From assembly GCF_001661265.1 (NCBI RefSeq), contig NW_017566997.1:1-64000 (forward strand): 64,000 bases of DNA. Direction: 5' to 3'. Of this stretch, positions 22,009 through 57,798 are shown piece by piece (within the stretch, counting starts at the first letter, position 1; every line of letters starts with the position of its first letter). A program made the position numbers and the translations under genes. The stretch is from Saitoella complicata NRRL Y-17804 (lineage: Eukaryota; Ascomycota; Saitoellomycetes; Saitoellales; Saitoellaceae). The notes beneath the pieces were generated by a model that saw nothing but the letters and a program-made list of their open reading frames with translations, was not told the DNA's origin and searched no databases.

Positions 22009-24113
<2,105 letters not shown>

Positions 24114-27100
24114 TTAGTCGTCATCCTCAATATCATCATCATGAACCTCATCCTCCTTCCTTACCGGCCTCGTGGGCTTGACAACCCGTCCGGGCGTTTT
24201 CCTCCCCTTCTCCCTCTCCTTCTCCTCCTCCCCCTTCAACTCCTCCACAATCCGATCATAGGAAACCCCCAACTTGCCCTTCATCTTCTCCAATCTCTCC
24301 CTATACTTTTCCTGAGCCGTGCCACTGAGGACAGCCAAGACGATCTTCCCCGCCAACTCACACACCTGCCTCTCCGCCTCAATAGCCTTAACCCCCTCCA
24401 ATTTCTCACCCTGTGTGTTGTCATCATCTTCCTCCTCCATCTCCTCATCCGAATCATCACCACCCCCACCACGACGGATCCGGCCGCCACCACTGCTGCC
24501 AGTAAGCCTCCCAACCTCCTGCTCCAAACACCTCATGACTGCTTCCTGTCCCTCCTCCGACACCCCACCCCTCATCCCACTCCCAACCTTGACGCGCAAC
24601 AATTCCAATCCCCCAAACGTCACAAACAACGTCCACATATCCAGCAACATACACGCCGCTTGGTGCTTTGCCTCGCTCCACCTCATCTGTGCCAGAATCT
24701 GGACGAGGATATCGAGAACCGTGTCGCGGGTTTCGCGCATCTGTCGGGCATCGCGGTCGTCGGCAGGGGATTGTGACGTAGAAGCCAGCGTCTGAATCTT
24801 CCACATAAAGTACCACCTCAAACTCTTCATCGCAGACACGATGAGTACAGTCTCATCATCATCTAACGCAACACCTCTCTCAACAATCTGTACCAGCACA
24901 CTGACCCCAGACAACCCACCATCCTCCTCCTCCATCGAATTCAAACAATTCGTCGCAGCAATCAACAACTCCAGTCTCCTAACCGCAGTCTCCACATCCC
25001 TCAACTCCTCCTCCCGAAACGCATCCGTCGCCAATGCCTTCCCCTTGACAAGACGTCTCAACCCACTCACGCTCTCATCCTGGATTTCAATGATTTTCGC
25101 CTCCGTAAGCGTACTCATATTCTCGAACGTCTGTGCACGCAACAAGGCAGCCGCAGCCTCCCGCAAGACGTTTTCATCCGTATGCTTGAAGAACGCACGC
25201 CCGATATCATCGAGAAGGGCCTCATACGCCGCATCCTGCCTCAATATCTGATAAATATCCAACTTCATCAACTGCTGCAACCTCAACACATCCGACGCAG
25301 TCCCCGGCGATCCCCCAAATTTCTGCATCAACTTCGGCAACAAACCCACCAGTGCCCTCGACACCTCCTCCTCAACATTCTTCGCCTCATCACTCTTCTT
25401 CTTGTTATGCGCCGCGGTCTGTTCAGCGTGCGTGATCGCACTCCTAACGCTCGCCCTGAGAACCTGCAACAAAATCCCCTCCTCCCCCTCCGTGGGCGCA
25501 CACAACCACCTCACCTTCTCCCCCACCGTCTTCAAACTCTCCAAATCAGCCTCAGTACCAACAGCAGAATGATCAAACAACAGATACTCCGCCAAATTCT
25601 CCCAATCCTGCATCTCTTCGAATCCCTCCCACAACGCCGTCGTGGCAAGATAGACACGACTCGTCGCCTTCCCCTCCGCCCCCAACCTCACTACCTCCCT
25701 CTCTCTCTCCTCCTCGTCCTCCTCTTCTTGTGTGTCAACCCCTATAGATCCATCAAACCTCCCCAACACCTCCGCAAGACACTTAAACCTGACCCACACC
25801 CCCCACTTCTCACCCTCGCCCTCAACCTCCTCCACACCACCCACAACCTCCGTCTTCTCCTCCACGCCCTCCGCAACCTGCGCCAAGAAAATCGGCGCAG
25901 CAGCCGCACGAATTTTGATATCTTTATCGAAAATCAACACAGCGATTTTCTCGACCTCTTCAGATTCAAGGAAGCCCCGAGCACGGATGTTGTTGAGCAG
26001 CCCGATTGCAGTGGCACGAACAGACGTATCAGCCTCCCTCTCCGCCATCTCAATAATCCTTGGCTTAAACCTCTCCGTGAAATGCCTCAGAGACGCAACA
26101 TTATTATCATCAGCATACAACCTCCCCAATACCTTCACGACCTCATGTCTCGTCGCCGCATTCGTATCCGACAAGACCCAGCCGAGGTAGCGTAAATACT
26201 GTCCCTCCAGAAACATGGACGGTAACTTGAGCATCCAACCACCGAGTTCACGGATACACTCTGTCCGAATCTGCGGGAAGACATCACGGTATCGGTGAAC
26301 AAAGACGACATCAAACGTATCCGACACCATCCCACTCACAGTCTCGACCTGTTCTCCAATCTCCGCGGTCTTCCTCTCAAGCGTCTTGACCTTCGTCTCA
26401 TTCGCCCTCGCCTTTTTCTGTTCCGCCTCGAGCTGCCTGGTCGCGGTCGATTCCTCTTTCTTCAGCTTTCCGAGAAGATCACAAAGTGCCGACACGATAT
26501 TGAGTGACATAACCGTAGACGTATGCCTCATCGGCCGAAACGTAGACGAACTCAACGCACCAATCCAAGTCTGTAAACTCTCCAACAAAATCCCATCCCA
26601 AAGCACGCCCCTCCCCGCCGCAGCCCCCACCAACCTCCTCAGGAAATCCCCCAAACTTTTCCTAAACCTCTTGAACTCGGGTTTCTTGCTCACGAGGGGG
26701 TACTCCCTTCTCGCCTTCTCCCTCACAACTTCCTGAATCTGCGCCAGTGTCTGCGTGGCGGAATCCGCGTCTTCGACGTCGTATGCGGTAATGGGTGTGT
26801 TACACGCGCAACACTTCAAGATGAAATTGACCATCTCCGTGATTGCCTCTCCACTCGCCTCAGCATACGAATCCAACCAATCGTTAATCGTGGACTCCAG
26901 GGCGGCATCCGGGTCGAGGAGTGCGTCATAAAGGGGTGAGTCCATTTCTTCCAACTCTTCGTGTTCGGTGTGAGGCGCATTGATACGAGCTTTCTTGCCG
27001 GGTTTGCCGGTGCGGGCGGGGGTGCGTTTGGGTGTAGAGGCAGCTTTACGGACACGTCCTCCAGCACCGCCCTTGGACTTGGGCTCACGAAGCTCCTCCT

Positions 27101-27329
27101 CCTCTTCACTCTCTTCCTCACTCTCATCGTCCTCCTCCTCTTCACTCTCTTCCTCATCAGAGGCTTCCCCGCCCCTCTTCCTCTTTCCCGCCGGTGTAGT
27201 ATTCTGCGGCGTATACAGCGGCTGCGGCTTCGACCTCACACGCGTCGAACGTCTATCCGTCGCGGGGGAGGAAACGCCGCTGTCGTCTGTGCCTAGTGCT
27301 GTAGAGGCTGTTGTTGTCCGTCGAGGCAT
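24114..27329 (-). CDS. SCC3: cohesin subunit SA/STAG (Scc3/Irr1/Psc3)
   Basis: 1071 residues, intronless. Scc3/STAG proteins bind the kleisin of cohesin and load it on DNA for sister-chromatid cohesion in the nucleus. The N-terminus has basic patches and an acidic run of Glu/Asp (about residues 57-80), then a basic stretch and PHTEHEELEEMDSPLYDALLDPDAALES. The STAG domain follows, with NFILKCCACN (about 165-175), then the stromalin conserved domain containing FVHRYRDVFPQIRTECIRELGGWM and YLRYLGWVLSDTNAATRHEVV (about 345-405), the characteristic signature. A HEAT-like helical region continues to about 970, and the tail is acidic and basic, ending DDDIEDDD. Length agrees with the family. It is divergent from CIA2. 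Confidence 0.92.
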   Translation of the reverse strand: MPRRTTTASTALGTDDSGVSSPATDRRSTRVRSKPQPLYTPQNTTPAGKRKRGGEASDEEESEEEEDDESEEESEEEEELREPKSKGGAGGRVRKAASTPKRTPARTGKPGKKARINAPHTEHEELEEMDSPLYDALLDPDAALESTINDWLDSYAEASGEAITEMVNFILKCCACNTPITAYDVEDADSATQTLAQIQEVVREKARREYPLVSKKPEFKRFRKSLGDFLRRLVGAAAGRGVLWDGILLESLQTWIGALSSSTFRPMRHTSTVMSLNIVSALCDLLGKLKKEESTATRQLEAEQKKARANETKVKTLERKTAEIGEQVETVSGMVSDTFDVVFVHRYRDVFPQIRTECIRELGGWMLKLPSMFLEGQYLRYLGWVLSDTNAATRHEVVKVLGRLYADDNNVASLRHFTERFKPRIIEMAEREADTSVRATAIGLLNNIRARGFLESEEVEKIAVLIFDKDIKIRAAAAPIFLAQVAEGVEEKTEVVGGVEEVEGEGEKWGVWVRFKCLAEVLGRFDGSIGVDTQEEEDEEEREREVVRLGAEGKATSRVYLATTALWEGFEEMQDWENLAEYLLFDHSAVGTEADLESLKTVGEKVRWLCAPTEGEEGILLQVLRASVRSAITHAEQTAAHNKKKSDEAKNVEEEVSRALVGLLPKLMQKFGGSPGTASDVLRLQQLMKLDIYQILRQDAAYEALLDDIGRAFFKHTDENVLREAAAALLRAQTFENMSTLTEAKIIEIQDESVSGLRRLVKGKALATDAFREEELRDVETAVRRLELLIAATNCLNSMEEEDGGLSGVSVLVQIVERGVALDDDETVLIVSAMKSLRWYFMWKIQTLASTSQSPADDRDARQMRETRDTVLDILVQILAQMRWSEAKHQAACMLLDMWTLFVTFGGLELLRVKVGSGMRGGVSEEGQEAVMRCLEQEVGRLTGSSGGGRIRRGGGGDDSDEEMEEEDDDNTQGEKLEGVKAIEAERQVCELAGKIVLAVLSGTAQEKYRERLEKMKGKLGVSYDRIVEELKGEEEKEREKGRKTPGRVVKPTRPVRKEDEVHDDDIEDDD

Positions 27330-27660
27330 TGTTTGCGACTCTCAATTGGAGGGTGTAGCTACCAGGTCTAGGGAGGTGTTGAGATCGGGGAGTATGGGTG
27401 TCGCACGAAGCGTCGGAGGTGGACGCGTCTGCTGCGTGGGGAAGCACTGGGAACATCGGTCCGTGGATGTCATGAAAAGAGCCTCGATCAATATATATTT
27501 GTTATCAAAGCTATTTCACAACATCAGCCCTTGACTTTTTCCTCTTTCTCTCGTGCTCCTGCAATACATCTGCCCCCGTACATCACCGCCAAACCCCCTC
27601 CTCCTCCTCCTCCTCCTCCAACCCATACACCACCAACCAATCTCTCCCCTTTGATCAGCA
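27330..27660. other. divergent promoter between the cohesin and CIA2 genes
   Basis: 330 bases shared by two divergent housekeeping genes. The CIA2 side has a pyrimidine-rich tract of repeated CTC units (about 27595-27619), probably in the 5' leader. No other feature is visible. Confidence 0.5.
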
Positions 27661-28275
27661 ATGGAAAACGCAAACCCAACAGTCCACCACGTCGCAACCC
27701 GCTCCTCCCCCAAAGACCAAGATCCTTTCGCCGACATCCTCGCCTCCACTTCTTTCTCCGATGGCAGTGGCGACACAGACTCCGACACCTCCTCGAACTA
27801 CGATGACGAGGAACGAGCTGATCCAATCGATGCACAAGAAGTATACGGTACGAATCTCGTGGGATGCGGATATCGATCAAGAACTAATCGAGTGCGTACA
27901 GATCTCCTAGCAAACATCACGGACCCAGAACACCCCCTAACCCTCTCCCAACTCGCCGTCGTCAATCTCCCCCACATCACCGTCCACGACCCCTCCTCCT
28001 CCAACTCCCGGCCCACCCCATCCACAGTCCTCGTCGAAATAACCCCAACAATCCCCCACTGCTCAATGGCCCAACTAATCGGCCTCTGCGTCCGCGTCCG
28101 CCTCGAACGCTCCCTCCCCTCTCGTTTCCGGGTCGACGTCAAAGTTAGGGAAGGGACGCATCAAAGTGAGGGACAAGTGAATAAGCAGTTGGCGGATAAG
28201 GAGAGGGTTGCGGCTGCTTGTGAGAATGAGCAGTTGATGGGGGTGTTGGGGGGCATGATGGAGACTTGTGTGTGA
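27661..28275 (+). CDS. CIA2: cytosolic iron-sulfur assembly component CIA2 (MIP18/FAM96 family)
   Basis: Part of the targeting complex that hands iron-sulfur clusters to nuclear and cytosolic proteins such as DNA polymerases and helicases. Exons 27661..27847 and 27902..28275 flank a 54-nt intron (GTACGA, branch CTAAT, acceptor TACAG); the intron is a multiple of three, so the unspliced frame is also open. Splicing yields 186 residues and restores the family block [20 protein letters not shown]. The hyperreactive Cys lies in [18 protein letters not shown]. The N-terminal 55 residues are acidic and disordered. The C-terminus is [25 protein letters not shown], as in the family. Confidence 0.93.
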
Positions 28276-52311: not shown

Positions 52312-55300
52312 ATGCTCTCTTTCAACGAGGCTGACTTGCTCCGTGCAGGCGATCTCTCACTCTCCGAAAACGACTGGGATCAATTCGGACTCACCTCCGT
52401 CACAATCCACCACAAAAACGACTCCCCAATCGACCTTTTCGACATTCATGCCCGCGCGCCCTTCACCGTCTCCGGGAACCTCAAAATGACGCAAACCGTC
52501 AAATCCTACCTCCGTCCCGGCCGTACTGGACGACCAATACAGACGAACTCGTTGGTGCGCGTGACGGTTGAGAATGTTACGAAGTACAGTCTGGAGGGAA
52601 AGGAGGATGGGCCGACGAGGATGTTTGTGCTCGGGGGGTGTGGGTGGTATGAGTTGCAGAGTGCTCAGCCGGGGTTTGAGGAGATTTATGAAGGGATGAG
52701 GATTAAGGCTGCGATGTGGGATTGGTTTAGTGAGAAGAGATTGGATTCGCTCGCGACGGATGAGGAGTGGGGAGTGGATGACCCACGACCACAGGGATTG
52801 CTGGAGTTTACGTGGGATTATATGTGTCAGGCACTTGTGGATGATTGGAAAGAGACGAATCAGTTTGCGCCGACGCATCCTGCGGCTAAGGATGCTGCGG
52901 CTGCGGTGTTTGACAAGTGTCATCTGTTTTTGATGTTTGAGATGATCGCGAGGGATGTGGAGTTTCAATATGAGAAGACGGATTTCTTCAAGGAATTGGG
53001 AAGGCGGCACAGAGCCGATCTCCGGTTCGCGAGGGATATCAAGACCGGAAAACTACGGAAAAGGGGAATGCCTTCAGGAAAGGCCGCATTCCTGGCAGCG
53101 ACGGCAAAAGTCACCATACCCCCTCAAACAGTGAGAGCAGCAGACGAGACAGATGCGCGGGAGGCAGGAAAGGATGTACACGAGAAGGAAGCCGCGCCTG
53201 AGGATATGCCACCACCAAAGCGAAGACCTGGACGACCGAGGAAATCAGAGACGATGTCAACGCCTACACAGCGCGCAAGAGCGGTTTCTGCTTCGAATAC
53301 ACCGGGAGACACCCCCGTGAAACGACCAGTAGGGAGACCCAGGAAATCACTCGTGCCGGTCGATACGCCTGGGAAAAGTGACGAGTCATTCGGACGGCGT
53401 AAATCAGGACGTGTACAGACTGGATCGTCGCCATACCCCGACATGTCACCAGCATCAATGAACGTGGATAGCCCAAGACGTACACGGGAGCGAAGAGTAC
53501 CGGCTAGAGTGGCGGAGAGTGTGTACCCAGTGTCACGATCCCCACCCCCCGAAAGACGGCGGTCATCAGCCGCGGTAAGGCGTGAGAGTACAACAGCGGC
53601 ACCAAAACACACGCCGAATCCCAACCCCAACCCCAACCCCCACCCCCGAAAACGACTAATGTCAGAGCCAGCGGAGGAGGAGACGATGATGCAGGCTGTG
53701 CGTATGCCTGCTGACCCGACGCGGTTGTGTTCGGATTATGTGCCTAGTGAGGATGAAGATGATCGTGTTCAGGCGCCTGAGATCAATGTGTTTGAGCTAT
53801 TCGTCTTTATCGACGGGCATTTCGCGCGGGGGAAGAAAGGGAGGAATGCGGAGAATGCGGGAGGACTCGTCAAACCCGTCGCACGCTTCTTTGGACTTCG
53901 AGGTCTTGAGGCGAGGGCGTTGATGGTGAAACACGCGCAGGAGTTGTTGAGTATTTTGGAGAGGAACAAGAAGACGGAGTTGGCTGTTTATGTACCCTTG
54001 GCGACGGAGTTGAATTTGTATTTGAGGGGGAATTTGGTACAGTGGCCGAAGAGGGTTAGGCGGGAGCATGAGCCGAGGGATCGGGAGGGTGGTGGGCACC
54101 ACCATGGGAGGCGGTATGTGGAGAATGGATCGACGATTGTGTGGCCGGCTTCGCCGGAGGTTGTGCCGCAGGGACCGAAGTATGAACTCATCCGTGGTGA
54201 TTTCTGGGAGTTGAAGAAGATTTGGGATTTGCTTCAGCACCGTCTCGATTCGAACCGATCGACAGTCTTGTTGGAGCACCTCCTCTGCCTACTGCGAGAC
54301 GAATGGGGCGTGGACATCGAGATGGCTGATGACCTCGTCTCCGCACACGTCGAATCCCTCCTCCACCACATGCGCAAAGACAGCAAAGAATGGAGCCGAA
54401 GCCCGATTTATCGTGATATGCAGTTTATGCAGCAAATCAAACAATCACTCGGTGAATGGGATCCGGAACAGAAACGGTATTTGGGCGCAAAGGATGCGCA
54501 TGTGTTGACGAGGAACTCGGCCGTACAGCAATCTGGTGCGAGGGCACGGGAGTTTGCGACGATTGTGTTGGATAATGGGCAGAGTATTGATGTTAATCAG
54601 TTGGCTGGACGCGGACAAGTCATCACGATGGAGAATTATCAGCATCAGCCGGAGGCGCATGCGCAGCCCCAGGTGTTTGATGGGAGGATTGGGAACGTGT
54701 CGATGGTAGAGGATGACGAGGATACGTCGACGATTATGGCGAGTATCCCGAGACAGAGGGTGTTGGATCATGTTGATTCTGTGACTGCGGAGAAAGTCTC
54801 GGCACTTGCGGCGGAGCTCTTGCACAATAGGCCTGAGTCTGGGGAGAATGTGGAGGGCAGCGTGCCGGTTACCGTCAACTCGCTTCTATCCGAGAACCGT
54901 TCAACGCCGACTGCGTCATTGCATCCTGAGTCGAATCAGTCGCCAGGTAAAGTTAACCAGCACCTTCAGCATCGACCTGCACAGACGCTATTCACTGCAC
55001 GTCGGCCGCCGAGTCCGATATACCAGGCTCCGCCACCACCTGGGATGAGGTTGAGTTGGAGTGCGTCGCCCTTGCCGAATGATGCGGCGACTGTTCAAGA
55101 ACCAAACGTTCAAAAGGCGATGTCGTGGTCGAACAACAATGTGCCACAAGTCCATCATCAACCGCAGCAGCAGCAGCAACCCCGCTGGCCCCCACCCTCC
55201 CAAGACTTTCCCCCAAAGCCCCCGGCTCCCTCTTCCTTCGCCCAACCCCAAAACCCAAGTAATCCCCCCGCCCCCTCCCCCGCCCTCGGCCAAGGCTTCC

Positions 55301-55485
55301 AATCGAGTCCAGCATGGGGCGCAGCACTCCAAGGTCCAGCAGTGAGTTATGGAGGCTCGAACGGGGGTATGCCGTATATGCAGTGTCCAGCAAGCGGATG
55401 TCCCCAGATATTCTTTAATGCGAATACGGAGGCGGGGAGGAAGGAGGTTGCGAGGCATGTGCAGGGACATGGGCAGCGCCAGTAG
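52312..55485 (+). CDS. large AT-hook protein with N-terminal domain and C-terminal zinc finger, unknown function
   Basis: 1057 residues, intronless. The N-terminal 260 residues look like a folded domain (FMLGGCGWYELQ-like block RMFVLGGCGWYELQSAQPGF, then GLLEFTWDYMCQALVDDW). This resembles, weakly, replication-foci targeting domains found in some fungal chromatin proteins; I cannot confirm it. Two AT-hooks follow: KRRPGRPRKS and KRPVGRPRKS (about 305-345). A second helical region (about 490-700) contains VFELFVFIDGHFARGKKGRN. The C-terminal third is Pro/Gln/Ser-rich. The last 35 residues have CPASGCPQIFF...RHVQGHGQ, a probable C2H2 finger. A nuclear, DNA-binding role is likely. Neighbours give no further clue. 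Confidence 0.7.
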   Translation: MLSFNEADLLRAGDLSLSENDWDQFGLTSVTIHHKNDSPIDLFDIHARAPFTVSGNLKMTQTVKSYLRPGRTGRPIQTNSLVRVTVENVTKYSLEGKEDGPTRMFVLGGCGWYELQSAQPGFEEIYEGMRIKAAMWDWFSEKRLDSLATDEEWGVDDPRPQGLLEFTWDYMCQALVDDWKETNQFAPTHPAAKDAAAAVFDKCHLFLMFEMIARDVEFQYEKTDFFKELGRRHRADLRFARDIKTGKLRKRGMPSGKAAFLAATAKVTIPPQTVRAADETDAREAGKDVHEKEAAPEDMPPPKRRPGRPRKSETMSTPTQRARAVSASNTPGDTPVKRPVGRPRKSLVPVDTPGKSDESFGRRKSGRVQTGSSPYPDMSPASMNVDSPRRTRERRVPARVAESVYPVSRSPPPERRRSSAAVRRESTTAAPKHTPNPNPNPNPHPRKRLMSEPAEEETMMQAVRMPADPTRLCSDYVPSEDEDDRVQAPEINVFELFVFIDGHFARGKKGRNAENAGGLVKPVARFFGLRGLEARALMVKHAQELLSILERNKKTELAVYVPLATELNLYLRGNLVQWPKRVRREHEPRDREGGGHHHGRRYVENGSTIVWPASPEVVPQGPKYELIRGDFWELKKIWDLLQHRLDSNRSTVLLEHLLCLLRDEWGVDIEMADDLVSAHVESLLHHMRKDSKEWSRSPIYRDMQFMQQIKQSLGEWDPEQKRYLGAKDAHVLTRNSAVQQSGARAREFATIVLDNGQSIDVNQLAGRGQVITMENYQHQPEAHAQPQVFDGRIGNVSMVEDDEDTSTIMASIPRQRVLDHVDSVTAEKVSALAAELLHNRPESGENVEGSVPVTVNSLLSENRSTPTASLHPESNQSPGKVNQHLQHRPAQTLFTARRPPSPIYQAPPPPGMRLSWSASPLPNDAATVQEPNVQKAMSWSNNNVPQVHHQPQQQQQPRWPPPSQDFPPKPPAPSSFAQPQNPSNPPAPSPALGQGFQSSPAWGAALQGPAVSYGGSNGGMPYMQCPASGCPQIFFNANTEAGRKEVARHVQGHGQRQ

Positions 55486-56493: not shown

Positions 56494-57586
56494 TCACTTA
56501 AAATTATTCTTCATCTCCCTCAGCTTCTTCATAACCTCCACTTCCCCCTCCACCCCCGTCGCCTCCCCTACCTCCCTCTCCCCAACCATCCTAAACACAT
56601 TCCACCCCTTATCCTCCTCCAACGTAAACTTCCCCGTCGTCACCTCATTCTCCTCACAATACTTCTGGAGTTTCTGGATGGCAGGGTTATGCGGAAGAAT
56701 GGAAGCGGCGAATTTGATGTTGGAGGCGGTGTATTCGTGGCCGGGGAAGATTTTTGTTGTGGGCGGGAGGGAGGAGAGGGTTGCGTCTAGAGCTCTGTGC
56801 ATTTCGGCGGCGGAACCTGGGGCGTTACGGTGTTAGCTTTTAGTTGAAAGGGAGAGGAGGCGGGGAAGGGATGTGGAAGGGGCGGACCTTCGAAGAATCG
56901 ACCACAGCCGGCGATGAAGAGGGTGTCACCCGTGAAGACGGCTTTCTCTCCGGTCGTCTTGTCCTCGACGTAGTAACAGATCGAATCTTGTGTATGGCAG
57001 GGTGTCGCCAACCTATTATCTCCTCCTCAATTAGCCGCTGCTCACACCCATCACCCCGTTTTACATACCCAGTTACATCAAGTTCTCCGATCTTCAACTT
57101 CTCACCATCCCTGACAATGTGCGTGATGGGTTTACAGTCGAAACCGCCATAGGCAGTAAGGTTGGGGTATGCCGCAAGGATTTGTTTGTTACCGCCGGTG
57201 TGGTCGCCGTGGTGGTGGGTATTACTGTACAAAGAACGCGATTAGCACATCCGAAAATATGCTAAACCGGCAAACCACGTACATCTATCGACGAGTCAGT
57301 AACGTGCTCGAATGCGACACTAACGTGGAATGGGACATACCAGGTATTTGAGATTAATCTCACCACCCTCGACCATCTTCTTCAAGACAGCCAACACCGC
57401 CTTCGGCTCAGCTGGATCAACAATCGCAGCGTCCTTCGTTTTGTCGTCAATCACCAAATAAGCGTAGTTATCACCAGTGCCCTATATCCCCGATCAGCGG
57501 CTGTTCGGCTGTTTTCGCCGTTCTCACTGCGAAGATTGAAGGAAGGGGAGAGGTACCTTCCACATGGGAATATTGACGATCTTCAT
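56494..57586 (-). CDS. GLO2: glyoxalase II (hydroxyacylglutathione hydrolase) with an apparent 2-nt microexon
   Basis: Hydrolyses S-lactoylglutathione to lactate and glutathione, the second step of methylglyoxal detoxification. Exons: 57586..57557, 57481..57341, microexon 57284..57283, 57224..57069, 57012..56888 and 56816..56494, total 777 nt, 258 residues. Exon 1 is [10 protein letters not shown]. The metal motif THHHGDH and the second site [16 protein letters not shown] are present, as is [13 protein letters not shown]. Between the conserved LKYL and NTHHHGDH lie two canonical introns, 56 nt (GTATGT...CTGAC...GATAG) and 58 nt (GTACGT...CTAAT...GTACAG), separated by only AT. Those two bases plus the next T make an Ile codon; without them the next codon is TAA. 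No upstream donor rescues the frame. Confidence 0.85.
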
Positions 57587-57798
57587 TGTGCGGGTTAGAG
57601 AGGGTATACGAGATGCGATAAATGGTCGGATGGATCGGAGCATGCAATTGAGATTGGTGGTTTGGTTGGTTTTGGTGCAGCAACTGTTCGGCCGAGGTGA
57701 ACGCGGGGAAGGGACGTCATGGCATACCAGGGCGTGCAGAGAGCCTGGGAAGATCGAAAGTTTTAGTCAACATGTTCTTAGGTTCAATTATTCTGGGA

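Follow-up and report, generated by a model that had tools for sequence, protein, structure and literature searches.

The glyoxalase II (GLO2) gene of Saitoella complicata NRRL Y-17804 contains a region in which 116 nt separate Leu57 (CTG) from the codon of Asn59 (T-AAT). The locus raises the question of how these two codons are joined, and whether two bases within the 116 nt form an exon of their own. The window is the whole stretch of DNA that was analysed, 64,000 nt from the start of contig NW_017566997.1, and the genome comprises 14.12 Mb in 34 contigs. As judged from the sequence, the dinucleotide AT is very probably included in the mature glyoxalase II mRNA as a 2-nt exon.

Glyoxalase II gene and protein

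The coding part of the gene runs from 57586 to 56494 on the minus strand (Table 1). Splicing that includes AT is predicted to yield a protein of 258 aa from a coding sequence of 777 nt, stop codon included. In Pfam, the spliced protein contains both the metallo-beta-lactamase fold (PF00753, 56.1 bits; cutoff 22.7) and the HAGH_C domain (PF16123, 77.5 bits; cutoff 25). It also passes the NCBI equivalog TIGR03413, hydroxyacylglutathione hydrolase, at 206.9 bits against a cutoff of 200.8. Judged by these matches, the gene product is hydroxyacylglutathione hydrolase (glyoxalase II). The best solved relative is 1qh3, presumably human GLO2, and its THHHWDH aligns to THHHGDH here, the THxHxDH metal site. 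Either the AT exon or a rival join described below brings THHHGDH into frame.

An upstream in-frame ATG at 57643 would prepend MLRSIRPFIASRIPSLTRT (57643-57587, minus strand). This extension would contain four Arg and no acidic residue, and it resembles a mitochondrial presequence. The two starts may therefore yield mitochondrial and cytosolic GLO2.

Table 1. Features of the predicted glyoxalase II gene, in window coordinates
Feature	Positions	Strand	Basis
Exon 1, coding part	57557..57586	-	Spliced model
Intron, 75 nt, GTACCT...ATAG	57482..57556	-	Spliced model
Exon 2, GTGDNYAY...INLKYL, ends in phase 0	57341..57481	-	Spliced model
First back-to-back intron, 56 nt, GTATGT...TACTGAC...GATAG	57285..57340	-	Sequence signals and S. 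coloradoensis 17-residue match
Candidate exon AT, 2 nt; with next T = ATT, Ile58	57283..57284	-	Frame, enumerated joins, homologues
Second back-to-back intron, 58 nt, GTACGT...CTAAT...GTACAG	57225..57282	-	Sequence signals
Exon 4, opens within Ile codon, carries metal site THHHGDH	57069..57224	-	Spliced model and structure alignment
Intron, 56 nt, GTATGT...AATAG	57013..57068	-	Spliced model
Exon 5, (G)...CGRFFE	56888..57012	-	Spliced model
Intron, 71 nt, GTCCGC...CCCAG, last of gene, unusual donor GTCCGC	56817..56887	-	Spliced model
Exon 6 including HAGH_C domain, stop TGA 56496-56494	56494..56816	-	Spliced model and Pfam

Layout and signals of the candidate two-base exon

Read along the minus strand, the exon ending in CTCAAATACCTG is followed by the 56-nt intron, AT, the 58-nt intron, and then T AAT ACC CAC CAC CAC. 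The predicted spliced join with AT is CTCAAATACCTG-AT-TAATACCCACC. The exon AT and the opening T of exon 4 form ATT, the codon of Ile58, which stands directly ahead of the metal-binding THHHGDH. If donor 1 were spliced straight to acceptor 2, all 116 nt would be lost and the join would read CTG-TAATACC, with a stop TAA at codon 58. A full-length enzyme requires AT because this direct join ends in CTG-TAA. An earlier note on this DNA had described two back-to-back introns with full signals, a sole remainder of AT at 57284-57283, an immediate TAA without it and, with it, one Ile codon, a 777-nt coding length and a metal site in frame. These coordinates, motifs and frames were all reproduced.

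Both introns have a GT donor, a branch site, a YAG acceptor and a length typical of the genome, in keeping with the general consensus forms of U2-type intron signals. Intron lengths were surveyed in 264 kb of the genome, made up of 200 kb of contigs 1-2 and the window, with reversed sequence as the control. Strict GTA[ACT]GT / CTRAY / YAG candidates are most frequent in the 50-59 nt bin, with 22 against 7 in the control. With the looser donor GTRNG, this bin is still the highest, but at merely 78 against 68. The claim of the earlier note that 56 and 58 nt are usual lengths here agrees with this peak. An ab initio intron set had a median of 206 nt, so most of its entries were false; it was dropped, and the motif count with its control was used instead.

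Conserved residue and enumeration of joins

The homologue set consists of the best 120 of 4644 matches, with lengths of 142-451 aa. A single residue lies between the LKYL position and the N or T of [NT]THxHxDH in 119 of these best 120. This residue is V in 72 of the 119, I in 43, L in 3, and A in 1. The lone exception among the best 120 is the Saitoella coloradoensis entry, which has 17 residues there. In the alignments, 1qh3 and 1xm8, the best two relatives of solved structure, likewise have one residue at this point.

For introns of at least 30 nt with GT/GC-AG, AT-AG or AT-AC ends, enumeration gave 259 single-intron joins, of which 33 are open to the end. Two-intron joins numbered 174, with 20 open. 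The scoring profile was made from 119 homologues and excluded the S. coloradoensis protein P0001. The top score of 410.8 bits is a tie between the 2-nt exon and a single AT-AG intron, followed by an AT-AC intron with three added residues (402.3 bits) and the best canonical single intron, which adds six (399.2 bits). Two-step removals, nested ones included (797; GT/GC-AG, each at least 35 nt), gave 61 distinct in-frame products, and LKYL-x-NTHHH is obtained from the AT exon alone. Among the enumerated joins, the 2-nt exon is the sole canonical GT-AG route to the one conserved residue. The sub-codon exon restores the conserved frame and motif, save for the score that the AT-AG intron shares.

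The role of chance was estimated from 50,000 dinucleotide shuffles that rearranged the interior and left the ends of the 116 nt unchanged. An exon of at most 14 nt that restores the frame and has a branch site, a YAG and a donor occurs at a rate of 0.0001 (GTAYGT) or 0.0004 (GTRNG), and the rate of an exact 2-nt exon is 0 (GTAYGT) or 0.00012 (GTRNG). Across the genome, the arrangement CTGAC/CTAAC-(4-13)-AG-(0-6)-GTAYGT is found less often than in the reversed control (38 vs 55 and 17 vs 55), so motif juxtaposition by itself proves nothing. The case for the predicted exon rests mainly on its reading frame, on protein conservation and on the sister species.

Eight of the 38 juxtaposition places were inspected by eye, and no second 2-nt exon was found among these eight. 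Six are ordinary exon borders (L026, L028, L029, L030, L031, and L033), and at L027 and L032 the coding frame is not clear on both sides. The gene at L028 (C6 536750-537550) has several introns and an apparent 17-nt exon, GCTTCGTGCTTATCATG. It is presumably transporter-like, with the sequence NRFMLGVVEAAVNPG-FVLIM-GMWYTAAEQPLRL.

Sister species S. coloradoensis

P0001 is the best homologue among the best 120 of 4644 matches and is 88% identical. Its 17 extra residues lie where the introns of the window lie. The insert was back-translated with full degeneracy and compared with intron 1 of the window, a comparison made from the predicted protein. At offset -2, 33 of 48 positions agree; twelve other offsets give 18-28. 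The last 17 positions of the insert fit at 14; among 200,000 random genomic 17-mers, 11 do at least as well. The insert is also compatible with a GTRNGT donor positioned at this exon border. It permits TACTAAC at nt 42-48 as well; the counterpart in the window is TACTGAC at nt 40-46. The motif part is weaker alone: of 11,553 open stretches of 17 codons drawn at random and starting with GT, 3,407 also permit the donor, and 319 permit both the donor and a branch site in range.

The best reading of the 17 residues is that they represent unspliced intron 1, kept by a genefinder unable to place the tiny exon. S. coloradoensis thus seems to share at least intron 1, which is the part matched by back-translation; the AT exon and intron 2 lie outside what the P0001 protein can show.

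Alternative readings

A single 114-nt intron with ATGTCC...ACAG ends (57338-57225) would keep GT in the exon and make residue 58 Val (GTT). This reading is very improbable, even though it equals the 2-nt exon in protein length and profile score and its Val is the commonest residue at this point in the best 120 of 4644 matches (72 vs 43 of 119 for Ile). It must ignore GTATGT, a good donor that lies two bases upstream. Inside the intron, the branch site and the sites GATAG (acceptor) and GTACGT (donor) would then be chance occurrences, at the shuffle rates of 0.0001-0.0004. The AT-AG intron is also impossible to write in the S. coloradoensis sequence, because the opening Val-Arg of the insert forbids A,T right after GT.

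Part of intron 1 could instead be kept as coding by another single intron. In the 96-nt GTGTCG...GTACAG intron (57320-57225), the join is CTG-GTATGTCCCATTCCACGTTA-TAATACC, and VCPIPRY replaces one residue; the AT-AC intron (57331-57227) is the one that adds three residues. Both are in frame and stop-free, and the S. coloradoensis gene model followed a route like the 96-nt intron in keeping part of intron 1. They score 8.5-11.6 bits below the 2-nt exon, and they add an insertion where 119 of the best 120 of 4644 homologues have a single residue. The retained stretch would be 7 residues in one species and 17 in the other, although the two proteins share 88% identity. The donor GTGTCG is weak, and the ends of the AT-AC intron do not carry the U12 donor consensus, ATATCC. 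Introns of this kind are highly improbable.

An assembly or sequencing error could have hidden a longer exon between the introns or made one intron artefactual, and a single assembly of the species was examined. The frame nevertheless closes exactly and restores the expected single residue, and the S. coloradoensis annotation is in trouble at the same codon, with a match to intron 1. An error is exceedingly improbable. Least probable of all is a stwintron, in which the donor or acceptor of an external intron is interrupted by an internal one and no exon separates them. Stwintrons are established in Ascomycota, according to the excerpt of PMC5639578, and one nested in-frame solution exists here, in which removal of a 79-nt internal intron precedes that of an external GC-AG intron. 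It gives LKYL-NTHHH, one residue fewer than the homologues, and depends on GCATAT as donor and on an external intron of 38 nt. Other nested solutions add six residues (among 40 of the 61 products listed), and none of the right-length products from the 797 two-step removals is nested.

Probable splicing mechanism and origin of the introns

Short fungal introns are generally assumed to be recognised by intron definition. On either side of the 2-nt exon would lie a short, ordinary U2-type intron. Each of the two, separated by two bases, would act as an intron-definition unit, its donor, branch site and acceptor all contained in 56-58 nt. Their excision would take two rounds, one intron in each, and the AT left over would join the opening T of the next exon to give Ile58. 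Sequential, intron-defined splicing is the likely mechanism.

The earlier note had called for a two-step order. One intron must precede the other, because spliceosomes cannot assemble on both at a distance of two bases. No particular order would be forced and either would be workable, because removal of one intron leaves the bases flanking the remaining splice site unchanged. The context of donor 2 is TAG-AT|GTACGT while intron 1 is present and CTG-AT|GTACGT once it has been removed, with G-A-T at -3 to -1 in both, and the context of acceptor 1 is GATAG|AT in either case. The same note had called exons this short rare and a test of the limits of exon definition. Exons this small are rarely documented, but no new limit is set, as 1-nt exons are published for APC11, VPS55, and CYP621A.

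The 2-nt exon might also serve as a control point, where the ratio of stepwise to direct 116-nt splicing sets the level of glyoxalase II. This role is very doubtful. If true, skipping would put UAA at codon 58 and create an unproductive-splicing switch common to both Saitoella species.

The mutual similarity of the two introns is no higher than that of shuffles (z 0.2), and tandem duplication of one intron as their origin is not supported. Because the introns are without mutual similarity, the likelier origin, rather than duplication, would be the independent gain of one intron close to an older intron.

Annotation and genome neighbourhood

Genefinders appear to stumble at this locus, as with the S. 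coloradoensis model and its additional residues. For the present assembly, Las1, the neighbour of GLO2, is listed in the protein database at 100% identity. GLO2 of this assembly is absent among the best 120 matches of 142-451 aa and, with a C-terminal query, among the best 120 matches of 82-260 aa. This absence is uninformative if the proteins come from an intron-ignoring caller, because Las1 has one exon here.

Elsewhere in the window, positions 24001-28000 show a strong GC skew of -0.351 over a minus-strand ORF of 1071 aa that matches the cohesin subunit SCC3/STAG. An open frame of 1057 aa at 52312-55485 (plus strand) has no Pfam match at E 0.001.

Comparison with known systems

A literature search for a 2-nt exon or microexon found none, and a table entry on an HLA-F deletion was unrelated. 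The arrangement in GLO2 is like recursive splicing at Drosophila ratchet points in its adjacent acceptor and donor and its stepwise splicing. Drosophila ratchet points are juxtaposed sites inside long introns, and nothing coding remains between them, unlike the predicted AT exon.

The excerpt of PMC5639578 describes two further systems. Stwintrons are similar in that two short introns leave one place in two consecutive reactions. They differ from the GLO2 pair in being nested, without an exon between, and in the internal intron obligatorily leaving first. The lipS gene of Dactylellina haptotyla is likewise an ascomycete gene with very small exons (3 nt). These are one whole codon each, so skipping keeps the frame, unlike AT.

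Sub-codon exons are also described in excerpts on APC11 (PMC4674806) and VPS55 (PMC8831610), which are plant genes, unlike GLO2 here. The APC11 exon is backed by GFP-fusion constructs (PMC4674806), and that of VPS55 by RNA-seq and RT-PCR sequencing (PMC8831610). For the 1-nt exon of Arabidopsis APC11, the authors favour intron definition and stepwise removal in the excerpt of PMC4674806, which also cites a potato 9-nt exon whose second intron is removed ahead of the first.

The closest fungal case is CYP621A of Fusarium, a single-nucleotide exon that is self-described as the first in fungi in the excerpt of PMC12940212. F. graminearum has two introns in about 139 nt. Like the GLO2 exon, it is hard for annotation, and it was found via a base missing from a conserved motif (PMC12940212). 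It differs in being one base long and in a P450 gene, and it has 20 listed orthologues and RNA reads in two species (PMC12940212). RNA-seq of S. complicata, comprising 89.3 million read pairs, is published (PMC4447899).

In the excerpts of these papers, well-supported sub-codon exons are few, namely those of plant APC11 and VPS55 and of Fusarium CYP621A, all 1 nt long. Tiny exons are real and readily overlooked by annotation. The candidate described here lies beside the metal site of a conserved core-metabolism enzyme in an early-diverging ascomycete, and it would provide a small system for how intron-defined spliceosomes treat introns two bases apart.
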